Both the position numbers and the translations under genes were made by a program. Of a stretch of DNA of 64,000 nt, positions 26,081 to 38,646 are shown in pieces. Each line of letters opens with the position of its first letter. Position 1 is the stretch's first letter. Under the pieces are notes generated by a model. That model was given only the letters and a program-made list of their open reading frames with translations, was not told the origin of the DNA and made no database searches. This DNA is from Bacillota bacterium (GTDB taxonomy: Bacteria; Bacillota; UBA994), in contig JAGXTJ010000023.1 of NCBI GenBank assembly GCA_018333655.1, positions 62,001-126,000 of the forward strand. Reading direction: 5' to 3'.

Positions 26081-26410
26081 ATGATTAGCAAGTGTTTGTC
26101 GAGTGGGGCAGAGGGAGGACGTGCGGAACTCTTGTCTGGGGTTAAGGCCGTGGTCTTGTCCTTCCTACAAGGGACGTCCGCTAAAGTTTATTTGTTTGGT
26201 TCCTTTGCCAAGAGCGAAGAAAGGCACAGCTCGGACATTGACCTTGCCGTCGACCATGCAGGGCAAGTCTCCCCACACATGTTTGCCACGCTGCGCGAGT
26301 TACTGCACGAGTCGTCCATACCTTACCAAGTAGATGTTGTAGACCTCTATCATGTGGCAGAGTCTTTCAGGACCAAAGTCAGGCAGGAGGGAATCCTATG
26401 GAGCGAGTAG
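26081..26410 (+). CDS. MntA-type nucleotidyltransferase antitoxin
   Basis: A 109-residue minimal nucleotidyltransferase. The active-site pattern is LFGSFAKSEERHSSDIDLAV (GS followed by DxD), with a later Asp in YQVDVVDL. In MntA-HepT systems such a protein modifies and neutralises the HEPN toxin by adding AMP to it. It starts with ATG 26081 and overlaps the HEPN gene by 13 nt. Assignment of the antitoxin role rests on the gene pair. Confidence 0.82.
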   Translation: MISKCLSSGAEGGRAELLSGVKAVVLSFLQGTSAKVYLFGSFAKSEERHSSDIDLAVDHAGQVSPHMFATLRELLHESSIPYQVDVVDLYHVAESFRTKVRQEGILWSE

Positions 26411-26811
26411 AAGAACGCCTTAACCAGGCCGTGAAGGCTGTAGCGGCTTTGTCTGAGGTAGTGGTCATTGACCAGGCTAGCGCTATCTGGCGCGACTCCG
26501 CGATTAAGCGCTTTGAGCTCGCCTTTGAAGCCACGTGGAAGGCCGCCAAGTTGGTCTTGCTCGTGCGTGAAGGCATCGAGGTCAGTAGCCCAAAAGGCGT
26601 GATCCGGTCATGTCGCGAAGTAGGCTGCCTCAGTGACGCACTTGCGACTGAGGCCCTCCTCATGGCTGACGACCGTAATTTAGCTGTTCACACCTATAAC
26701 GAGGAACTCGCAGAGCAAATTTATGGCAGACTAAAGAGCCATCTCACCGTGCTGCGTGCTTGGGTGGCTTCATTATCTGTAGGGGATAACGAGAAGCAGA
26801 CTGGAGGGTAG
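26398..26811 (+). CDS. HEPN-domain toxin (HepT/HI0074 type)
   Basis: A 137-residue helical protein with the HEPN RNase motif R-x4-H followed by Tyr: Arg93 to His98 in DDRNLAVHTY. Other family blocks are AIKRFELAFEATWKAAK and SPKGVIRSCREVG. HepT-type proteins are RNases held in check by their MntA partner, encoded just upstream. The C-terminal end runs into the repeat array: the last codons (GDNEKQTGG) are next to its first units. Confidence 0.85.
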   Translation: MERVEERLNQAVKAVAALSEVVVIDQASAIWRDSAIKRFELAFEATWKAAKLVLLVREGIEVSSPKGVIRSCREVGCLSDALATEALLMADDRNLAVHTYNEELAEQIYGRLKSHLTVLRAWVASLSVGDNEKQTGG

Positions 26812-27075
26812 AGGCAAGAAACAGGAAGCAAGAAACAGGAAGCAAGAAACAGGAAGCAAGAAACAGGAAACAAGAAGCAAGAAGCAAGAAACAAGAAGCA
26901 AGAAACAGGAAATAAGAAACAGGAGGCAAGAAACAGGAGGCAAGAAACAGGAGGCAAGAAACAGGAAGCAAGAAACAGGAAGCAAGAAACAGGAAATAAG
27001 AAACAGGAGGCAAGAAACAGGAAGCAAGAAACAGGAAGCAAGAAATAGGAGGCAAGAAACAGGAAGCAAGAGAGG
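26812..27075. repeat. Tandem array of 14-bp AGGAAGCAAGAAAC-like units
   Basis: About 260 bp of imperfect copies of AGGAAGCAAGAAAC, itself two 7-bp halves, with variants such as AGGAGGCAAGAAAC and AGGAAATAAGAAAC. Roughly 18 copies. There are no spacers, so it is not a CRISPR array. Frames across it are open only because the unit has no stop codons on the minus strand; they encode Phe/Leu/Pro/Ser/Cys repeats and are not genes. The complement of the 5277-5420 array is built from similar units. With the next repeat and terminator it fills the 427-bp gap to the MCP gene. Confidence 0.92.
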
Positions 27076-27238: not shown

Positions 27239-29077
27239 TTAGGTGCGGAACTTGCTCGCTGCGGTGTAAAGTGACTTGGCGAGCTCGCCTAGTTGCTGCC
27301 CTGCGGTGGCGCTCTCTTGGGAAGAGGCGGCGACTTCTTCGGTGATGGCGCCCAGATTTTCCATAGAGGCCGAGACTTCGTTGGCGGCTGCCGCCTGTTC
27401 TTCACCCGCTGCGGAGATGCCCTCGACCATGAGCGCGATATTGTTTATCTGCGCCACGATGTTCTCTAGGGCCTCTTGCGCGCTCTTGGCTCCCGCGGCG
27501 CCCTGCGTGCTGATAGTTACTGCGCCGTCTATCTGCCCCTGTATAGAGGCGATGAGCTTGGTAATCTCCTTAGTCGACTGCCTGCTTTGCTCAGCTAGGC
27601 TACGCACCGCGTCGGCCACGACGGCAAAGCCTCGGCCGTGCTCGCCCGCCCGCGCGGCCTCGATAGCGGCGTTTAGTGCCAGTAAGTTCGTTTGGTCCGA
27701 GATATCGTCAATGGCAGAGACAATGCCACCGATTTGCTTGGAAACAGTAGAAAGCGCTAAGACGCTTTCTTGCACCGTCTTTAAGGAATTTATGGAGTTA
27801 CCTACCCTGGCGGTTCCCTCGGCGGCAGCGGTGCGAGCATTAGAGCTGGCAGCCGTGGCGCTCTGGGCATTAGCGGCAATTTCCTCGGTAGCGGCGGCCA
27901 ATTGCTCGAGCGTGCGCGAGATTTCTTGGGTAATTCCTGCTTGGCTGTCGTTACCAGCGGCGACTTCTTTAATGCTGCCGCTAATAAGGCCCGATTTGTC
28001 TGCCAAGGCAAAGGAAGCAGCCTGTGCTCCTGAAATCATGGTGCGCAGGTCGCCAATCATCTGGGCGAAAGCGCGCGAGAGATCGCCTAGTTCGTCTGTA
28101 TCATTACCGGCTGTGTAGGCATAAGTCAGGTCACCGCCAGCCACGGCCTGCACTCCCTTGACGACGGGTACTAGGCGCGAAGTGAGACGCGAAGCATAAA
28201 CCCAGGCCCCGATGCTAGCAGCAGCAATGAGAAACGGGAAGGCAATCGCCATAAACCAAACTACTGACATGGCGTCGGCGCGTATCTCCCTTACGCCAAC
28301 CTCGGCCACCACCACTAGGTTTGGCCCTGGCACCAACTCCATTTTACCAAAGACATCTAGTCCCTGGTAGTTTATGTAACGGCCAAAGAACTTGCCCTCG
28401 GCTCCTGGCGCAAAGCGTTCTAGCGCTGGGGCGGAGGCCTGCAAGGCTAGAGGAGCCTGTTCTACAAAGCGGCTGGCAGTGACAAACAAACCCTCGCGAT
28501 TGACGAGGTAGCGCTCGCCGGTATGTTCAAAATGGCTCAGGGGCAGGTAGGGATCAGTGGCCAGCGGGGTGGCAATGGTTACTGCTCCGACGATGGCATT
28601 CCTTTGGTTGCGCACCGGCGCGGCAAAAACCCAGACTAACGAGCCATCAATAGCAGATTTGCGAATGGCACTCGAGGGCACCCCCCTGAGGGCACCCTGT
28701 ACATGCTCCTGGGCTGAGAGGTCAAGCACGGCGTTAGCCGTGTTCAGGTTAGACACGCCCTGCGCATCGGTCAGGGTAATCGAGGCCACATTGGCCAAGT
28801 CTGCCCGCGTGCGGGTCAGTAAGTCGAATATAGCGGTATTGTTTCCCGTGAGAAGCGTAGGCGACATGGCCAACTTAGTAGCATGAGAAAGCAGTGCGTC
28901 ATGCCTTACTCTCAAAGTATTTATCAAACCCTCGTGCTTCCCCGCGAGAATTGCCTGCGCCGCTTCGTCCATGGTGTAGACATTGCGCAGTACAGTAGCC
29001 ACCCCAAAGCCCACAAGAGGCAGTGTGCATACCAGTATCATGACGAAAACAAGCTTTGCCCGTAGTGTCTTTAGCAT
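27239..29077 (-). CDS. Methyl-accepting chemotaxis protein with a periplasm-side Cache domain
   Basis: A 612-residue transmembrane receptor: TM1 about 8-30, an extracellular double-Cache-like sensor about 35-268, TM2 about 271-293, a HAMP region, then the signalling domain with the highly conserved tip [20 protein letters not shown] and the [18 protein letters not shown] segment. It relays ligand signals to CheA through a coupling protein. It is transcribed away from the CheW-Cache gene; its sensor (187-265) closely resembles residues 278-356 of that protein. ATG 29077 follows GGGGAGAGAAT on the minus strand. Confidence 0.95.
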
Positions 29078-29259: not shown

Positions 29260-30414
29260 ATGAGTCAGGATTTGCAGCTTGTAATTTTTGCCTTGGATAG
29301 AGAGTACTACGGCATTGAAACGCGGCTAGTCACCGAGATTTCGCGCCTTGAGGCGCTGACTTTTGTACCGCGCACCGCCAAGCACATCGCCGGTGTAGTC
29401 AACTTGCGGGGGAAGATTACCCCCGTCATTTGTCTGCGCGCGCGGCTCGGCCTGCCGCCGCGCGTTGACAGCAAGGAGACGCGCATAATCTTTGTCGAAG
29501 TCGAGGAAGTATTGGTCGGCCTAGTTGTCGATGCCGTGCTTGAAGTAAGTGATATCGCCGCCGCGCTCATTACCGCGCCGCCGGCGGTTATTTCTGCCCC
29601 CTTTGTGCTCGGGGTGTGCCACTACAAGCAGCAAAATGCCGAGCATTCGGCGCGAGTAACCCTAGATGCCCTCGTGCAGCAAGAGAAAAACGCCATTGCC
29701 CTGCGCCTCTCGGAGATGCAGGGGCAAGTTAAGCTGCTGGCAGAACTACCGCTCTGGCAGACAGCTGCCAATGCTCTGGCCACGGCAGAGCTGTTTACGC
29801 GCCGCATCCAACTGCGCGCTATTGAGAACATCGCCATTACCGACCTCACTGGCCACAGCCTAGTGAACACCGCGCACAAGCCGTTGGACTTGTCAAAACT
29901 CAAGTATGTCCACAAGTCGCTTACTGGCGCGCCCGCGCATGAAATAGTCGTTTCGGCTGTTGACGGCGGCATTATCCTGGCGGTATCTGAGCCTCTGCGC
30001 AGCCCGCAGGGACAGGTAGTTGGCGTCATTTTGATGACCACAGATTTGTCTAAGGACCAGAGCCTTGAGTTTGCCCCCTTTGGTCAGACGGGCGAGCGCT
30101 ACTTAGTAGACCGCAACGGGCACTTTATTACCAAAAGCCGTTTTATGGAAAACGCAGTGCTTCTAAGGCAGGCTGCCTCTGCGCCCGCCCTTGACTTGTT
30201 TGTCGATAAATCCCTGCCGAGCTTTTTTGGGCGGTATTTAAACTATCGCCAGCACGAAGTCTATGGCGCCATGAACTACTTGGCGGCTCTCGATGTGGTC
30301 GTCGTAGCAGAGCAAGAGGTAGTAGAGACGACAGGGGAGATACTGGTGGTCTTGCTTGACCCCGCCCGACTATTTACCCAAGAACTAACGGCCAGGCAAG
30401 GGGTGATTTCATGA
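29260..30414 (+). CDS. CheW coupling protein with a Cache sensor domain inserted in the CheW fold
   Basis: A 384-residue soluble protein with no transmembrane helix. Residues 1-123 are most of a CheW domain (LVIFALDREYYGIE, VVNLRGKITPVICLR, EVLVGLVVDAVLEV); residues about 124-359 match the MCP sensor encoded opposite (GERYLV, SRF, FFGRY, VVVVAE); residues 360-378 (GEILVVLLDPARLF) are the closing CheW strand and helix. A Cache domain has thus been placed in the last CheW loop. CheW links receptors to CheA. It is the only CheW-like adaptor here, SigD-controlled, overlapping cheA by 4 nt. It would sense a cytoplasmic ligand or the receptor itself; this is inference. Confidence 0.88.
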   Translation: MSQDLQLVIFALDREYYGIETRLVTEISRLEALTFVPRTAKHIAGVVNLRGKITPVICLRARLGLPPRVDSKETRIIFVEVEEVLVGLVVDAVLEVSDIAAALITAPPAVISAPFVLGVCHYKQQNAEHSARVTLDALVQQEKNAIALRLSEMQGQVKLLAELPLWQTAANALATAELFTRRIQLRAIENIAITDLTGHSLVNTAHKPLDLSKLKYVHKSLTGAPAHEIVVSAVDGGIILAVSEPLRSPQGQVVGVILMTTDLSKDQSLEFAPFGQTGERYLVDRNGHFITKSRFMENAVLLRQAASAPALDLFVDKSLPSFFGRYLNYRQHEVYGAMNYLAALDVVVVAEQEVVETTGEILVVLLDPARLFTQELTARQGVIS

Positions 30415-32357
30415 AAAGTAATGAATATCTACAGTTATTTTTAGACGAAACAGAGGAGATGGTCGACCGTTTAGCGACTAATCTTGTCTCCTTAGAGAAA
30501 AAACCTTCCGACCATGAGCTCATCTCCGTCGTCTTTCGCGACGCGCACACCATTAAAGGCTCCGCCGGAGCCATGGGCTACACCCAGATGGCGAGCATTG
30601 CGCACCATATGGAGAGTGTGCTGAGCCTTTTGCGTGAGAAAGAGCTTGCCCCCACGGCGCTAGTTTTTACGGCCCTGCTTGGCGCTCTCGACTTACTCAA
30701 AAATATTAAGCAAGATATTTATCGCTCGGGTAGCGAGGGGCAGTACAATCTCGCGCCGGTTATTGCTGAGCTAGGTTCTTTTGGCAGCAACGCACAAGTC
30801 GCGAGCGCCACCGACGCCTTGCCACCCGCCGCCAGCGCGGCGCAGAGCGCAGGTACCAACTCGGCTGCGGCTCTGGAGTACAAAGTAGAAGTGACGCTTC
30901 GCCCTGATGCCCCCATGAAGGGGGTGCGGGTGTTTCTCTTGCTACAGATCTTGCGCGGCCTAGGGTCGGTGCTAAACTGTGACCCGGCTGAAGAACAGCT
31001 CTTAAATGAAAAGTTTGAGCAGCGCTTTGCCGTGGTGCTGTCTACCGAGCGGCACAGCGATGAAGTCCTAGCCATGCTTGGCAATGACGGTGATGTTGAA
31101 GATGTACGAGTTGCCCCTGTAGCGGCCAAGAAAGTTGAAGCCGAGGGCTCTGACAAGGCAACTGTCACTAAGGCCGATACTCGTCAGCACTCGGTGCGGG
31201 TCGATGTGCGCAAGCTTGAGGCCCTAATGAACTTAGTGGGTGAGCTGGTTATAGAGCGCAATCGCCTGGCCAATGTCGCTACGCACCTAGAGCGACAAAA
31301 CAAAGAGGATGAAAATGTGCGTACCCTGATGGCTGTTTCTAGTCAACTAGGGCGCATCACGGGCGACTTACAGCGCGAAATAATGAAGGTACGCATGGTG
31401 CCCATCGCCCAGCTCTTTGGCACCTTCCCGCGCTTGGTGCGCGACTTGGCCCAGAACTTAGAAAAAAATATTGAGCTAGAGCTCGAAGGCACCGATACCG
31501 AGCTAGATCGCACCATCGTCGAAGAGGTGAGAGACCCTCTTATCCATTTAGTGCGTAATTCCGTCGATCACGGTGTCGAGACCCCCAGCGAACGCCAAAA
31601 AAAGGGCAAACCACCCACGGGGCGAGTGCTGCTCAGCGCCCGCCACGAGGACAACCAGGTGGTTATCTCTGTTAAGGATGATGGCGGCGGCATAGATGCG
31701 GCCAAAGTGGCGCGCAAAGCGGTGGCCATGGGGCTACTCACAGAAAGCGACCTAGCGGGGCTTAGCGAAGCGCAAAAGCAGCGTCTCATTTTGCTGCCCG
31801 GCTTAAGCACCGCCGCCGCCGTTAGCAATGTCTCGGGGCGCGGCGTGGGCATGGACATAGTGCGTAGTCAAATTGAAAAGCTCGGCGGCAGTGTCGACAT
31901 TGCCAGCACCCTAGGGCAGGGCACCGAGTTTACTATTCGCCTGCCCCTCACCTTGGCTATCTTCCGCGCTTTGTTAGTGAGCGCCAATAATTTAGACTAC
32001 GCCCTGCCTATCGCCACCGTTATCGAGACACGCAAGCTAAACCCCGCCGATTTACGCGTGGTTAAGGGGCGTGAATGCTTGGTGTTGCGCGAGCAAATTG
32101 TGCCCGTGGTCGCCTTGCATACCCTTTTCGCTCTGCCCGCCCCGCAGAAAAAACCGCAGAGCTTAGTCGTAGCGGCGAGTGGAGCCACTAAAGTTGGGCT
32201 ACTCGTTGACCGATTACTAGGTGAACAAGAAGTAGTGCTTAAACCCCTAGGCCCCTTTTTCGCCCAGAACAAAGAGTTGGCTGGTGCCACCATCTTGGGC
32301 GATGGGCGGGTAGTGCCCATTCTCGACATCAATGGCCTACTGGGGTTGATGTCCTAG
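30411..32357 (+). CDS. cheA: Chemotaxis histidine kinase CheA
   Basis: A 648-residue kinase with the full domain set: P1/HPt with His46 in DAHTIKGSAGAMGY, a P2-like response-regulator binding domain about 155-240, P3 dimerisation (VDVRKLEALMNLVGELVIERNRL region), P4 ATPase with the N box (HLVRNSVDHGVE), G1 (DDGGGID) and G2 (GRGVGMD), and a P5 CheW-like domain at the end. It phosphorylates CheY and CheB in response to receptors. Starts ATG 30411, overlapping the CheW-Cache gene; 2 nt before cheB. No cheY is found in the window. Confidence 0.97.
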   Translation: MKSNEYLQLFLDETEEMVDRLATNLVSLEKKPSDHELISVVFRDAHTIKGSAGAMGYTQMASIAHHMESVLSLLREKELAPTALVFTALLGALDLLKNIKQDIYRSGSEGQYNLAPVIAELGSFGSNAQVASATDALPPAASAAQSAGTNSAAALEYKVEVTLRPDAPMKGVRVFLLLQILRGLGSVLNCDPAEEQLLNEKFEQRFAVVLSTERHSDEVLAMLGNDGDVEDVRVAPVAAKKVEAEGSDKATVTKADTRQHSVRVDVRKLEALMNLVGELVIERNRLANVATHLERQNKEDENVRTLMAVSSQLGRITGDLQREIMKVRMVPIAQLFGTFPRLVRDLAQNLEKNIELELEGTDTELDRTIVEEVRDPLIHLVRNSVDHGVETPSERQKKGKPPTGRVLLSARHEDNQVVISVKDDGGGIDAAKVARKAVAMGLLTESDLAGLSEAQKQRLILLPGLSTAAAVSNVSGRGVGMDIVRSQIEKLGGSVDIASTLGQGTEFTIRLPLTLAIFRALLVSANNLDYALPIATVIETRKLNPADLRVVKGRECLVLREQIVPVVALHTLFALPAPQKKPQSLVVAASGATKVGLLVDRLLGEQEVVLKPLGPFFAQNKELAGATILGDGRVVPILDINGLLGLMS

Positions 32358-32359
32358 CT

Positions 32360-33385
32360 ATGAGTAACGAGAAGAAAGTACGCGTACTTGTTGTCGATGA
32401 CTCACCCTTTATGCGGCAGCTCATTGGCAATATCATCGGTGGCAGTGCCGACCTTGAGGTCGTGGGCATTGCCCGCGATGGCAAAGAAGCCGTAGAAAAA
32501 TGCCGCGATTTACGGCCAGACGTTTTGACCCTAGACATAGAGATGCCGGTAATGACCGGTCTCGAAGCCCTAGCCGTCATTATGCGCGAAACGCCGACCC
32601 CCGTGGTCATGGTCAGCAGCCTTACTAAGGCCGGCGCGAAAGAGACCCTGCAAGCGCTAGAAATAGGCGCGATTGACTTTATTGCTAAGCCAGAGCGCGC
32701 CGCCAATACCTTCGATTTAGCGGCCACCATCTTGCCGAAACTCCGCGCCGCAGCAGGCGTGGTGTGGCCTCGGGCAGCGCGTCGCCTCGAAGTAGGCGTA
32801 CCTGCGCCGCGCACCTACGACCTAGTACTTATCGGTTGCTCTACCGGGGGTCCGGCCGCCCTGCAGCACATCGTGCCCGCCTTGCCCGCGAATAGCTCCC
32901 TGCCAGTGGTAATCGCGCAGCATATTCCGGGTACCTTTACGGGGCCCATGGCGCAGCGGCTAGGGCAGCTGGGCAAGGTCAAAGTGGTAGAGGCGCAAGA
33001 CGGCATGCCGCTTACAGGCGGGGTAGTCTACATCGCCCCGGGCGGGCTTCATACAGTGGTGCGTAAAGATCGCCTGCGCTGCTACTTGCAGGTTCTACCT
33101 GCCGAACATGTAGCGACACCCTTTCGCCCAAGTGTCGACGTACTCTTTAAGAGTGCCGAGGAATATGGCAGCAGTGTCTTGGCCGTAATCCTTACGGGCA
33201 TGGGGCAGGATGGCTTAGAAGGTGCTAAGGTGCTGCACCGCGCAGGCGCCCATATACTGGCCGAATCCGAAGAGTCCGCCATCATTTACGGCATGCCCCG
33301 CGCGGTAGCCGAAGCCAACTTAGCACACGGAGTGCTTAGTCTACGTCAAATTACGGAGTTTTTGCAAAAAGCCATGCAAAGATAG
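32360..33385 (+). CDS. cheB: Protein-glutamate methylesterase/glutamine deamidase CheB
   Basis: A 341-residue protein: an N-terminal receiver domain with phospho-acceptor Asp59 (VLTLDIEMPVMTG) and acidic DDS pocket, then the esterase domain with the catalytic triad in IGCSTGGP (Ser), AQHIPGTFT (His) and TGMGQDGLEG (Asp). It removes methyl groups from receptors, giving adaptation. No cheR lies in the window, so the methyltransferase must be elsewhere. Confidence 0.96.
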   Translation: MSNEKKVRVLVVDDSPFMRQLIGNIIGGSADLEVVGIARDGKEAVEKCRDLRPDVLTLDIEMPVMTGLEALAVIMRETPTPVVMVSSLTKAGAKETLQALEIGAIDFIAKPERAANTFDLAATILPKLRAAAGVVWPRAARRLEVGVPAPRTYDLVLIGCSTGGPAALQHIVPALPANSSLPVVIAQHIPGTFTGPMAQRLGQLGKVKVVEAQDGMPLTGGVVYIAPGGLHTVVRKDRLRCYLQVLPAEHVATPFRPSVDVLFKSAEEYGSSVLAVILTGMGQDGLEGAKVLHRAGAHILAESEESAIIYGMPRAVAEANLAHGVLSLRQITEFLQKAMQR

Positions 33386-34028: not shown

Positions 34029-35444
34029 ATGGCATCGACATTCTTTGGCTTTAGCATTGCCAGGCGCGGCATGAGCGCCCATCAGGCGGCGCTCAGCGTT
34101 ACCGCCCACAATATCGCCAATGCCTCTACCGCTGGCTTCTCGCGCCAGCAGGCCGTCTTTCACGCCACCACCCCCTCTGGGGCGGCCACCGGCAACCGTG
34201 CCGCTGGCGCAGGGCAGGTGGGCACCGGGGTGCATATCGCCGAAATTCGCCGCGTGCGCGATGGCTTCTTAGATTTTCAGCTGCGGCAGCAGCTCAGCAA
34301 GCAGACCGCCTGGCAGGAGCGCCACGAGGCTCTATCTACCGTCGAGATGATACTGATGGAGCCTAGTGAAACTGGGCTTAGCAATGTTTTTGACCGTTTT
34401 TGGGGCGCCTGGCAGGAGCTCGCTAAAAACCCCACTTCTGGTGCAGTGCGAGCCGCTGTAGTCGAGACGGCCTCTACCCTGGCCTCGTCGCTCAACAGCC
34501 TCGCCGCGCAGTCCGAAGTGCTCTTGTCTGACCTTAATGTTAAGGCCGAAATCGCCGTGGTAGACATTAACTCTTTGTCCTCGCAGCTAGCCGTCTTAAA
34601 TGAGCAAATCGTTACTAACTTGGGTGCGGGCTTAAACCCAAACGATCTACTTGACCGCCGCGATATCTTGCTCGACGAGCTTTCTAAAATAGTAGATTTT
34701 CGCGCCTTAGAGCAGCCTAATGGCGCTATCAATGTGGCCGTGGGTGGCAGACACCTGGTGCAAGAGAGCAGGGCGATAGCGCTGACTAGTGGTCTCGTCA
34801 ACGGCGAAATGGTAGCTACCTGGCCAGATGGACAGAGGCTAGCCTTCAGCGATGGTAAACTCGCTGGCATAGCTGCCGCTCGCACCTTTATTGCCACTGA
34901 CTTTTTAGGCCGTTTAAATACCTTGGCCTCCGAACTGCATGAGAGCGTTAACAGGGCGCATGCCAATGGGCGGTCGCTTGACTCTGCGAACCCACTACTA
35001 GGGGCAAACTTTTTCGAGTTGCCCGCCACCGCCACCGGGCAGGAGGCGCGTCATATTCGCGTCGACCGCGACATAGTGGCCAACCACAACCTGCTACGCG
35101 CGGCGGGGCCTGCTCCGGCGGGGCTCTCTGACGGCAGCAATGCGCTAGCCATCGCCCGTCTGCGCAATGCCCTTATGCCGAGCGGCACGGCCTCGCTCGA
35201 GGGCTACTTTGCCGGCATCGTCACCGACCTTGGCGTCGAGACCCAGCAGGCAGAACGCATCATGCTAAACCAAGAGTCGCTCATGAGTCAGCTACAAAAC
35301 CGCCGCGAAGAAGCGGCCGGGGTTTCGATAGACGAGGAGCTCGCCTACATGGTGCAGTTTCAGCATGGCTACCAAGCCTCGGCGCGCCTCTTGGCTACCC
35401 TCGACGAAATATTGCAGACCATAATTAACTTAGGGAGGCAGTAG
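34029..35444 (+). CDS. flgK: Flagellar hook-associated protein FlgK
   Basis: A 471-residue protein, ordinary length. The N-terminus has the rod/hook family motif AHNIANASTAGFSRQQ; the C-terminus has the coiled segment EELAYMVQFQHGYQASARLLATLDE. It joins the hook to the filament together with FlgL. ATG 34029 after AAGGAGGTC. It is exported without a cleaved signal by the flagellar type III system. Confidence 0.95.
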   Translation: MASTFFGFSIARRGMSAHQAALSVTAHNIANASTAGFSRQQAVFHATTPSGAATGNRAAGAGQVGTGVHIAEIRRVRDGFLDFQLRQQLSKQTAWQERHEALSTVEMILMEPSETGLSNVFDRFWGAWQELAKNPTSGAVRAAVVETASTLASSLNSLAAQSEVLLSDLNVKAEIAVVDINSLSSQLAVLNEQIVTNLGAGLNPNDLLDRRDILLDELSKIVDFRALEQPNGAINVAVGGRHLVQESRAIALTSGLVNGEMVATWPDGQRLAFSDGKLAGIAAARTFIATDFLGRLNTLASELHESVNRAHANGRSLDSANPLLGANFFELPATATGQEARHIRVDRDIVANHNLLRAAGPAPAGLSDGSNALAIARLRNALMPSGTASLEGYFAGIVTDLGVETQQAERIMLNQESLMSQLQNRREEAAGVSIDEELAYMVQFQHGYQASARLLATLDEILQTIINLGRQ

Positions 35445-35446
35445 CC

Positions 35447-36367
35447 ATGCGCATTTCCAACGCCACCCTGCGCAATAATGTGATGCGTAACCTACATAGT
35501 AGCCTGCGCGAAATGAACGAGGCACAGCGGCAAATGGCCTCTGGCCGCACCGTACAAGTGCCCTCCGACAACCCCATCGTGGCGGGGCGTCTCTTAAATA
35601 TTAATGCCACCATGGCCGAAAGCGCGCAGTTTCAAACCAATGTGCAGGACGGCATCGCCTGGCTTAATATGACAGACGTCACCCTTGACGCCGTGGGCGA
35701 GGCGCTGCACCGCGCCAGAGAGCTAGCCATCGCCGGAGCGAGCTCCACCTTGCCCCCCGATGTGCGCGCCTACAACGCCACCGAGGTCGACCAGCTGCTG
35801 CGCCATGTCGTCTCACTGGCGAACTCCTCTTTTGACGGTAGCCGTCATTTGTTTGGCGGCACGCACCATGGCGGCATACCCTTTGCCTCTAGCGAGGCAC
35901 CAGATGGTACTTTGCAGCTGCCTACTGTTGTGCCCGGCGCACCCGAGGGTAGGGGCGCCATCAGCTACGAAGTGCTGCGCAATATTGAGATGCAGGTCAA
36001 TATCCCCGGGGCGGAGCTCTTTCAAGACGGCGCTAACAGTGTTTTTGGCGCCCTAACTATGGCGCGCGACGCACTGCGGGCCACTCCCACGGCGGATGTA
36101 CAGGTCTCCTTAACGGCCCTGCAAGATGCGCTTAGCGCAGTGCTTGACGCCCGCGCTACGGTGGGGGCACGCCAAAACAGGCTCGACATGATGGATGCGC
36201 GCTACAACGACGAGCGCACCACTCTAAGCGAGCTTAGATCTAAACTGGGCGATGTCGACATGGCCGAGGCCATTATGAATTTTAATGTGCGCGAGAGCGT
36301 CTACCAAGCCGCCCTAGGCGCCGCCGCGCGCGTCATGCAGCCCACCTTGCTGGACTTTTTGCGCTAG
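35447..36367 (+). CDS. flgL: Flagellar hook-associated protein FlgL
   Basis: A 306-residue flagellin-like protein beginning MRISNATLRNNVMRNLH and ending with the flagellin-type C-terminal helix (DVDMAEAIMNFNVRESVYQAALGAAARVMQPTLLDFLR pattern). It forms the second layer of the hook-filament junction. Starts 2 nt after flgK; the next gene, fliW, begins 3 nt after its stop. Confidence 0.95.
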   Translation: MRISNATLRNNVMRNLHSSLREMNEAQRQMASGRTVQVPSDNPIVAGRLLNINATMAESAQFQTNVQDGIAWLNMTDVTLDAVGEALHRARELAIAGASSTLPPDVRAYNATEVDQLLRHVVSLANSSFDGSRHLFGGTHHGGIPFASSEAPDGTLQLPTVVPGAPEGRGAISYEVLRNIEMQVNIPGAELFQDGANSVFGALTMARDALRATPTADVQVSLTALQDALSAVLDARATVGARQNRLDMMDARYNDERTTLSELRSKLGDVDMAEAIMNFNVRESVYQAALGAAARVMQPTLLDFLR

Positions 36368-36370
36368 AAG

Positions 36371-36805
36371 ATGCTGATGCAAATCGTAAGTAGCCGCCTA
36401 GGTGAGCTAGAAGTATCTGCTGACGAAGTTATTAATTTTAGCGACGGCTTCCCAGGCTTGCCAAGCTGGCAGGCCGCCGTGCTACGCCAAACGCAGGTCG
36501 CGCCCTACCTGCTGTGGCTGCAGTTTGTGCACGACAGCGAGGCCGCTTTTTTATTGGTCGACCTAGCTATAGCTTTGCCCGACTACGACCTCGCCCTAGC
36601 CCGTACCGCCGCCGAGTTAGGCGAGCAGGCGCAGGTCTACGCCATCGTCTCCGTGCCAGGCGGCACCTTAATCCGCGCCACCGCCAATCTTTTAGCGCCC
36701 GTCGTCATCACCTTCACCCCCGCGCTAGCAGGCCGGCAAGTAATATTGCACGACAGTGGCTACCCTCTGCGACACACCCTCTTTATTGAGGACGAGCCAT
36801 GTTAG
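36371..36805 (+). CDS. fliW: Flagellar assembly factor FliW
   Basis: A 144-residue protein with FliW features: VINFSDGFPGLP near the N-terminus, LLWLQFVHDSEAAFLLVD and the proline-rich strand pattern. FliW binds either flagellin or CsrA; when free of flagellin it blocks CsrA and so lets flagellin be translated. It overlaps csrA by 7 nt, the usual arrangement. Confidence 0.93.
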   Translation: MLMQIVSSRLGELEVSADEVINFSDGFPGLPSWQAAVLRQTQVAPYLLWLQFVHDSEAAFLLVDLAIALPDYDLALARTAAELGEQAQVYAIVSVPGGTLIRATANLLAPVVITFTPALAGRQVILHDSGYPLRHTLFIEDEPC

Positions 36806-37053
36806 TCCTAGCGCGCAAAGTGGGCGAGAAGCTACGCATCGGCGACCATATCGAGGTGGTGGTAGTCGAGGTCAAGGGCGACACCGTGCGCCTAGGCATT
36901 AAAGCCCCGCGCGGGGTGGCTATCTACCGCCAAGAGCTCTACGAGGCCATACAGCGCGAAAACGTGGCGGCTAGTCAGCTGCCGGCGAATCTATCTCTAA
37001 AACAAAATGAGAATTTACCCCTAAAGTACCCACCACCCCTGCCGATAGAGTAG
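36799..37053 (+). CDS. csrA: Translational regulator CsrA
   Basis: An 84-residue CsrA with MLVLARKVGEKLRIGDHIEV, VKGDTVRLGIKAPRGVAIYR and the EL.EAIQREN helix; the tail after residue 65 is variable. It binds GGA motifs in mRNA leaders; the flagellin leader just downstream has two. The 3' end of the gene also contains the SigD promoter of flagellin. Confidence 0.96.
   Translation: MLVLARKVGEKLRIGDHIEVVVVEVKGDTVRLGIKAPRGVAIYRQELYEAIQRENVAASQLPANLSLKQNENLPLKYPPPLPIE
37022..37048 (+). promoter_or_regulatory. SigD promoter of the flagellin gene
   Basis: TAAA at 37022-37025, 15-bp spacer, GCCGATAG at 37041-37048, one base from consensus. It lies inside the last codons of csrA. Expected transcription start near 37054 gives a leader of about 75 nt. 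Confidence 0.85.
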
Positions 37054-37088
37054 ACGAGGGGCCCGGCGCGCGACGAGCCAAAACTCAA

Positions 37089-37122
37089 GCGGCAAGGAAG
37101 CCGCCGAGAAAATCAAGGAGGA
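37089..37122 (+). promoter_or_regulatory. CsrA-binding leader of the flagellin mRNA
   Basis: A hairpin GCGGC-AAGGAA-GCCGC (37089-37104) shows GGA in its loop, the preferred CsrA site; a second GGA is in the Shine-Dalgarno AAGGAGGA (37115-37122). Two such sites, one over the ribosome binding site, are the known design of the Bacillus hag leader. Confidence 0.75.
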
Positions 37123-37128
37123 ATAGAA

Positions 37129-38646
37129 ATGAGAATTAACGCCAATATGTCCGCCCTTAACACCCATCGTCAACTGAGCGCCAACCAAGCTAGCACCGGC
37201 CGCTCGGTAGAAAGGCTATCTTCGGGTCTCCGCATCAACCGTGCCGGCGACGACGCCGCAGGCTTGGCCATCAGCGAAAAAATGCGCGGCCAAATCCGTG
37301 GTTTGTCACAAGCCTCGCGCAACGCGCAAGACGGCATCTCCATGATTCAAACTGCCGAAGGCGCGCTGAACGAGACACATGCCATTCTGCAAAGAATGCG
37401 TGAGCTTGCTGTTCAGTCGGCGACAGATACCAATACTACTGACGACCGCCACAAGATTCAGTCTGAAGTAGACGAACTCGCCAGAGAAATCACCCGTATC
37501 TCTAACACGACGGAGTTCAACACCCAAAATCTTTTGGCCGGCGGCCTTAACAACAGATTCCACATTGGCTCAAACGCCAACCAATTCATGGATTTGTCGG
37601 TCGTGGCAATGGATGCGCAATCTCTAGGCGTTGCTGGTTCTGTTTCGGTTTTGTCTGGTGCGTTTGGCGCCCGTAATTCTGGCATTACTAGCGTGACGAA
37701 CATTGGGCGGAACTTGGCCGAGCGCCATGATTACAACATTGATGTGGTTCGGAGGGCGGCAACTGGGTCGGCTATAACAGCTAGCCCCAGCACCCCGGCC
37801 CCACCCGCCCTTGCTGCTGCTCCCGCTGATCTCGTTGTTACTGGATTTAACCGCACTTCTGATACGGCTTATTTGTTGCGTGTAGCTGGAGTAAATGCGA
37901 CACCCGGCGACAATCACGTTACAAGCTTGGAGTTCTCTCGCGATGGTGGTGCGACATGGGGAACGGCAGGAGTGGGAGGAACAGCCGCGAACATAGTATT
38001 TACGTTTGATGGCATTACCCTCAACACTAGTGATGGTGCTGGTATAAGCCATGCTGTCGGCAACACTTATAGTTTCACAGCCACCGTAGCCAGTGCGACT
38101 TTGCAGTTGCAGGCTGGAGAAACAAATATTGGCAGTGCAGTAACTGTGCGCGCAGGCATGACTAGTGCTGAGCTTGGTAATGAAGTGACAGGGCAAACGC
38201 TTACTGCGAACTTTAATTTTAACGACCTTTTCGTCGCGACTACAGGGCCTTTTGGTACAGATAATTTTATCATTAGCCAGGGACAATCTAGTGCGGCGGT
38301 CACTTCTGGGGGAGTAGTCTCAACAGAAGCCGTTGCGAGGGCAGGTATTCTTGTTAACACGCAAGTTACTGCAAATAATGCGATTACCGTTATTGACAAT
38401 GCACTTACTTCGGTCTCTACCGAGCGCTCTAAATTGGGTGCTATCCAAAATCGCCTCGACCACACCATCGCTAACCTAGGCACCTCGGCTGAGAATTTAA
38501 CCGCCGCCGAGTCCCGCATTCGCGACGTTGACATGGCAGAAGAGATGATGGAGTTCACCAAGAACAATATCCTCTCCCAGGCTGCCCAGGCCATGCTCGC
38601 GCAGGCTAACCAGCTGCCCCAAGGCGTGCTGCAGCTCCTCCGTTAG
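37129..38646 (+). CDS. fliC: Flagellin
   Basis: A 505-residue flagellin. The D0/D1 N-terminal part (about 1-165; MRINANMSALNTHRQL, SSGLRINRAGDDAAGLAISEKMR, FNTQNLL) and C-terminal part (about 420-505; DVDMAEEMMEFTKNNILSQAAQAMLAQANQLPQGVLQLLR pattern) are well conserved. The middle 250 residues are variable, Thr/Ala/Val-rich beta-type surface domains with more relaxed base use than the neighbours. It builds the filament. Own SigD promoter, CsrA-type leader and terminator, so it is a single-gene unit. Confidence 0.96.
   Translation: MRINANMSALNTHRQLSANQASTGRSVERLSSGLRINRAGDDAAGLAISEKMRGQIRGLSQASRNAQDGISMIQTAEGALNETHAILQRMRELAVQSATDTNTTDDRHKIQSEVDELAREITRISNTTEFNTQNLLAGGLNNRFHIGSNANQFMDLSVVAMDAQSLGVAGSVSVLSGAFGARNSGITSVTNIGRNLAERHDYNIDVVRRAATGSAITASPSTPAPPALAAAPADLVVTGFNRTSDTAYLLRVAGVNATPGDNHVTSLEFSRDGGATWGTAGVGGTAANIVFTFDGITLNTSDGAGISHAVGNTYSFTATVASATLQLQAGETNIGSAVTVRAGMTSAELGNEVTGQTLTANFNFNDLFVATTGPFGTDNFIISQGQSSAAVTSGGVVSTEAVARAGILVNTQVTANNAITVIDNALTSVSTERSKLGAIQNRLDHTIANLGTSAENLTAAESRIRDVDMAEEMMEFTKNNILSQAAQAMLAQANQLPQGVLQLLR

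Follow-up and report, generated by a model that had tools for sequence, protein, structure and literature searches.

The locus described here raises the question of whether a CheW adaptor, normally the link between chemoreceptors and kinase, may itself sense an intracellular signal, since one of its genes, here called cheW-Cache, encodes a CheW with a sensor domain inserted into it. The gene lies in a window (the whole stretch of DNA analysed) of 64,000 nucleotides from a Bacillota bacterium, together with the following features:

27239-29077, reverse strand: membrane chemoreceptor of 612 aa, the divergent neighbour, with TM1, Cache sensor, TM2, HAMP and MCP signalling domain
29260-30414, forward strand: cheW-Cache open reading frame, 384 aa, with an ATG start and no internal stop
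30411-32357, forward strand: cheA, with Hpt, P2, dimerisation, HATPase and CheW domains (Pfam)
32360-33385, forward strand: cheB (NCBIfam NF001965, 378 bits, over the cut-off)
34029-38646, forward strand: flgK-, flgL- and flagellin-like genes downstream, named by reading their translations

A ribosome-binding site (GGAGG) precedes the start codon of cheW-Cache, and the stop codon shares bases with the cheA start (ATGA). The gene thereby overlaps cheA and is followed by cheB, i.e., it stands beside cheA in a chemotaxis locus, as is expected of a cheW, and the flagellar-like genes downstream assign that locus to flagellar chemotaxis. The genome complement comprises one CheA, two CheW proteins and two MCPs. 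We consider it probable (roughly two chances in three) that cheW-Cache provides the principal CheW of the array for flagellar chemotaxis and that its dCache domain works as a cytoplasmic sensor within the scaffold.

The rest of this complement lies elsewhere in the genome. The second CheW is an ordinary one (~137-140 aa, 31% identical, G000:C6 L003:1504-1914), is encoded far from the che locus, and has a counterpart in all eight of the eight genomes of the order. The only other receptor (G000:C55, L132:5626-8160, forward strand) is a soluble MCP with no clear TM segment and a C-terminal SBP_bac_5 domain (255.8 bits), which is an oligopeptide-binding protein domain; apparently, this is a second sensor of extracytoplasmic type used in the cytoplasm. 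Most genomes of the order encode receptors of about this length, and the ones that were read (L113-L115) close with a similar sequence. Immediately downstream of the membrane receptor gene in the window is a tandem array (26814-27071; 18.4 copies of the 14-base unit GCAAGAAACAGGAA) that yields long spurious frames of FLASCFL repeats, and two short genes at 26081-26811 look, by reading, like an MNT/HEPN-type nucleotidyltransferase and its partner.

Within cheW-Cache, two segments of CheW enclose the inserted domain:

29260-29625, forward strand: CheW part 1, residues 1-122, strands 1-9 with the NLRG motif at 48-51 (Pfam CheW, E 1e-27)
29626-30333, forward strand: inserted double Cache domain, residues 123-358, in the turn between strands 9 and 10 (by Pfam dCache_1, Foldseek and its clade), laid out as a long N-terminal helix (127-161), a distal lobe (~190-262) and a proximal lobe (~263-353)
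29932-29994, forward strand: the longest stretch of the insert that is invariant in the three orthologues, residues 225-245, PAHEIVVSAVDGGIILAVSEP, in distal-lobe strands
30334-30411, forward strand: CheW part 2, residues 359-384, with strand 10 (361-366) and a helix (368-371) that complete the fold

The original prediction, made from the sequence, had proposed that residues 1-123 are CheW-like and that the residues after the insert supply the missing last strand and helix of CheW, and profile comparisons bear out both halves of this claim. The full protein scores 96.8 bits against Pfam CheW (PF01584; curated cut-off 23.5), with a match at residues 6-123 (model positions 1-120 of 138, E 1e-27) that, in the intact protein, ends 18 positions early. 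The N-terminal part alone scores 98.7 bits (model 1-118), and joining it to the tail with the insert removed raises this to 110.6 bits and extends the match to model positions 1-136 of 138. Against a profile made from 15 CheW proteins of the ordinary type, the N-terminal part joined to its real tail scored 152.2 bits, a value that none of 5,000 random 27-residue tails, drawn from other reading frames in the window, attained. Since the tail lifts the CheW score and no random tail equals it, residues 359-384 form the C-terminal end of CheW. The NLRG motif and other invariant CheW positions are retained. Profile searches of the protein matched neither a receiver domain (the feature of CheV) nor the MCP signalling domain PF00015, and the CheR domain that characterizes CheWS is also absent, the protein stopping 13 residues past the helix at 368-371. 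By the features tested, the cheW-Cache protein is therefore a member of the CheW family.

An AlphaFold model of the protein (pLDDT 91.5, pTM 0.79) was compared at the level of DSSP with a predicted ordinary CheW from a sister genus (pLDDT 87.9). Nine strands fall at equal positions in the two proteins (4-12, 15-20, 24-29, 43-49, 52-58, 75-81, 84-90, 92-100 and 116-122). In the control, strand 9 is followed by a two-residue turn, strand 10 (125-130) and a helix (132-135), whereas in cheW-Cache the whole dCache domain is modelled between strands 9 and 10, after which strand 10 (361-366) and the helix (368-371) follow. The predicted strands thus match the control up to and including the last strand and helix of a complete CheW fold, and residues 361-371 close the CheW strand order, as the structure prediction suggested for this protein at the outset was meant to establish. 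The DSSP strand assignments, together with the unchanged register, suggest that strands 9 and 10 pair. The alignment given to AlphaFold consisted of the three orthologues, CheW fragments and Cache fragments of receptors, and its CheW tail came from the three orthologues with no ordinary CheW contributing; closure of the fold was therefore not imposed by the alignment. Foldseek searches of the PDB with the model recovered both components, namely CheW (2qdl, TtCheW; E 4.5e-13, TM-score 0.76 to the target) and many dCache sensor domains, among them 3lif as well as 6mni, 5t65, 8bmv and 7k5n (E about 1e-8 to 4e-7). A sequence search of the PDB, by comparison, matched CheW structures only and left the Cache part without a match.

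The insert belongs to the dCache_1 family (PF02743), in agreement with the proposal that residues 124-359 resemble a chemoreceptor sensor. Its match at residues 131-336 (E 1.2e-12) exceeds the curated cut-off (48.4 bits against 45), and it has the two PAS-like lobes and long N-terminal helix of the family. Cache domains are, in 78% of cases, extracytoplasmic and placed between two TM helices (PMC4822843). The insert is not in this usual dCache_1 setting: it holds no transmembrane-like stretch (its maximum mean hydropathy over 19 residues is 1.47, compared with 2.6 in TM1 of the neighbouring receptor) and is flanked on both sides by CheW strands. As the whole protein lacks a signal peptide and TM segments, it is assigned to the cytoplasm, which was also predicted from the sequence. 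The insert is, hence, a dCache_1 domain in a place that departs from the usual location of its family. The motifs that identify amino-acid, amine and purine ligands in dCache domains (dCache_1AA, dCache_1AM and dCache_1PU) include an aromatic W-[FY] pair (PMC11245519). At the site of W128-Y129 of PctA, the insert has K215-Y216, as placed by hand through a conserved xYxxxL.G segment. Because the W of the motif is replaced by K215, no ligand specificity of the known motifs applies to the insert.

Such an arrangement could in principle arise if a sequencing or assembly error had merged two genes, which was named at the outset as an outcome that would overturn the prediction. Each of the three species examined in this genus has the nested architecture, with full-length orthologues of 70-71% identity in two further assemblies (JAGXSS010000052.1 from the MAG Peptococcaceae bacterium CROMO_A_245, and QLUC01000074.1 from the MAG Bacillota bacterium BS524). 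The same joint in three independent metagenome-assembled genomes, at ~70% identity and with extensive synonymous divergence, excludes a frame artefact or chimera, and the chance that an error created the gene is negligible. Conservation across these orthologues also bears on a second alternative, in which the domain entered a tolerant loop by chance and is a passenger without function. Its occurrence in a single genus would suit this explanation, as would the nature of the strand 9/10 loop, which is short and exposed and may tolerate insertions. Against it, three species have retained the insert, 70% identical, free of frameshifts and stops and with its secondary-structure core intact. In a comparison of the two closest species, dN/dS is 0.08 in the CheW part and reaches 0.135 in the insert (comparisons with G000 being near saturation at synonymous sites). 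The gene is under purifying selection, and a neutral passenger is very improbable.

Where the sensor came from can be traced in the neighbourhood. Five relatives in two sister genera have, at the same place before cheA, an ordinary CheW of 148-155 residues (loci L026 and L028-L031), 49-58% identical to the CheW part of cheW-Cache. In one sister genus, all four of the four genomes have a dCache receptor, encoded divergently beside cheW wherever the contig covers both genes. The divergent receptor of the window matches MCPsignal (4e-40), HAMP (2.5e-10) and dCache_1 (2.2e-5), with TM segments recognized by hydropathy; its dCache_1 score (24.6 bits) is under the cut-off and poorer than the 48.4 bits of the insert. 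It had been estimated by eye that about half of the last 80 residues of the insert are identical to this receptor, and alignment gave 41 of 79 (51.9%) over residues 274-353, with 36% identity over the whole insert and 29% over the distal (ligand-binding) lobe. In a phylogenetic tree, the insert groups with the sensors of the sister-genus receptors and of the window's neighbouring receptor (100/100 support), separately from other Bacillota sensors; the branch order within this clade, and hence the donor lineage, is not fixed. The insert thus has its origin in this receptor family, and we infer that it is the Cache sensor of the family's divergent receptor beside cheW, probably copied into CheW in the ancestor of the genus. 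The transferred Cache would have lost both membrane helices, with two antiparallel CheW strands now holding its ends together, the role formerly played by those helices. The borders of the insert have only short, chance-like direct repeats and no insertion scar.

In the other two species of the genus, the receptor locus appears to have changed. The receptor divergent to cheW-Cache in G001 (L024:3530-5101) has a 4HB_MCP_1-like sensor (25.4 bits against a cut-off of 27), and a partial receptor in G002 (L025:7423-8033) begins like the four-helix-bundle-type receptor of G001. These sequences are consistent with an apparent sensor replacement at the conserved receptor locus, with the gene in G002 being partial. 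As the neighbouring receptors there have, or begin like, the 4HB type, the nested sensor seems to have outlived its likely source beside cheW. Retention of the insert in both species despite such a neighbour argues for its being a sensor in its own right. It also bears on the possibility that the insert detects the neighbouring receptor's molecule in the cytoplasm, which would let the array compare its concentration outside and inside the cell, a special case of a sensory role. The common origin of the two sensors and the 52% of positions that are identical in their last 80 residues are in line with such a shared ligand. The low identity of the distal lobe, the other type of neighbouring sensor in two species that kept the insert, and a tree that does not fix the donor lineage within the family all speak against it. 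We regard it as improbable, and the suggestion in the original prediction that the insert binds the receptor's ligand is correspondingly weak, with the neighbour having, or beginning like, the 4HB type in two of the three species.

Conservation within the insert helps to distinguish a sensory from a purely structural role, in which the domain would be a spacer, a dimerisation arm or a docking site on the CheW ring with a disused pocket, for example to change how the array packs or to bind a further soluble protein. Over the three orthologues, identity is ~76% in both the distal core and the proximal lobe and only 40% in the helical region (146-188). Equal conservation of the proximal lobe is compatible with a structural part, as is the lack of the known ligand motifs, and Cache domains are capable of dimerisation. 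The distal lobe, which contains the pocket, is, however, just as conserved and holds the longest invariant run (residues 225-245; an equally long run of 21 residues arose in 300 of 20,000 shuffles), and the insert passes the dCache_1 cut-off and outscores the neighbouring receptor. A structural role is thus conceivable but rather unlikely.

Taken as a whole, the interpretation in the original prediction is largely supported. Our best reading of the function remains the one proposed there, namely that this CheW may recognize a ligand in the cytoplasm and modulate CheA without an intermediary. A small intracellular molecule may bind the distal lobe of the inserted dCache and shift the ends of the domain, whereby strain would be passed into the hairpin of strands 9 and 10. 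This could alter the packing of CheW on the P5 domain of CheA or on the receptor tip and so change the output of CheA without a membrane receptor in the chain. The organisms would thereby gain an extra sensory channel in genomes with just two receptors and one CheA. Cache domains usually signal as dimers via a transmembrane helix, a route that is gone in cheW-Cache, and we know of no direct precedent for the passage of a signal through a beta-hairpin. In a dCache domain the two termini leave the fold side by side and, as a rule, continue into two membrane helices (PMC4822843). The geometry of the insertion is easily understood, because the paired ends now enter two antiparallel CheW strands. 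Whether CheW is itself the ligand receptor, with the dCache controlling CheA by straining the strand 9/10 hairpin and no membrane receptor involved, we judge to be evenly poised.

Searches for the nested layout in other genomes placed it in the three species of the genus only, a small set of uncultured Bacillota. Beyond the genus, ~435 other Bacillota genomes yielded no nested CheW; they comprised those of the class (15 genomes), a sample of the phylum (399) and another two classes (4 and 46, in part included in the sample), and searches of this kind would miss a very diverged nested CheW. Close relatives were also sought by a pattern scan in 84,980 species genomes, the one search that reached phyla beyond Bacillota, and here, too, no nested form turned up outside the genus. 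Larger CheW-matching frames turned out to be an overlong G+C-rich frame in G068, a triple CheW in G188 and a CheW of the ordinary type in G257.

Among known systems, the closest precedent is CheWS of Treponema denticola, a CheW with a CheR-like SAM sensor that was shown to be an input to chemotaxis and is placed by models below the ring, close to CheA (PMC10653840). Both proteins are a CheW with its own cytoplasmic sensor, and CheWS sits in the array, as cheW-Cache probably does. The SAM-binding sensor of CheWS is C-terminal and derived from CheR, whereas cheW-Cache has a dCache of receptor origin that lies within the fold of CheW itself. Ordinary CheW proteins (PF01584; TtCheW 2qdl and those of the sister genera, which occupy the same locus) share the fold and strand register of cheW-Cache and have a two-residue turn in place of the insert. 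Membrane receptors with dCache_1 (PF02743), above all the one at 27239-29077, share its sensor family and the common origin supported at 100/100, but carry the domain outside the cytoplasm between TM1 and TM2 of an MCP, and not in the cytoplasm between CheW strands. CheV and cheW-Cache both add a signalling domain to CheW; in CheV this is a C-terminal receiver, which cheW-Cache lacks. CheW-PAS and CheW-CZB, which are unstudied or partly studied, have a small-molecule or redox sensor fused to CheW, from sensor families unlike that of cheW-Cache (PMC10653840). The view that no CheW with an internal Cache domain had been described agrees with what we found, with CheWS, CheW-PAS and CheW-CZB being known; the available main text of PMC10653840 does not contain the word Cache and describes no nesting for CheW-PAS or CheW-CZB. 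A CheW that bears a sensor is thus a known kind of protein, and a receptor sensor nested in the CheW fold is, as far as we found, an undescribed variant.

CheW is commonly regarded as a passive linker, and CheWS suggested that it can be a site of input. A nested sensor of traceable receptor origin, with insert-free relatives as natural controls, makes the question of whether CheW can drive CheA a testable one, and the site of the insertion points to a loop of CheW that may be coupled to kinase control. If the proposed reading is true, the largest extracellular sensor family of prokaryotes would be working in the cytoplasm through a new type of connection, a receptor sensor could be transplanted into a scaffold by way of its two membrane-facing ends, and the chemotaxis array of these bacteria would read a signal from within the cell without involving a membrane receptor.
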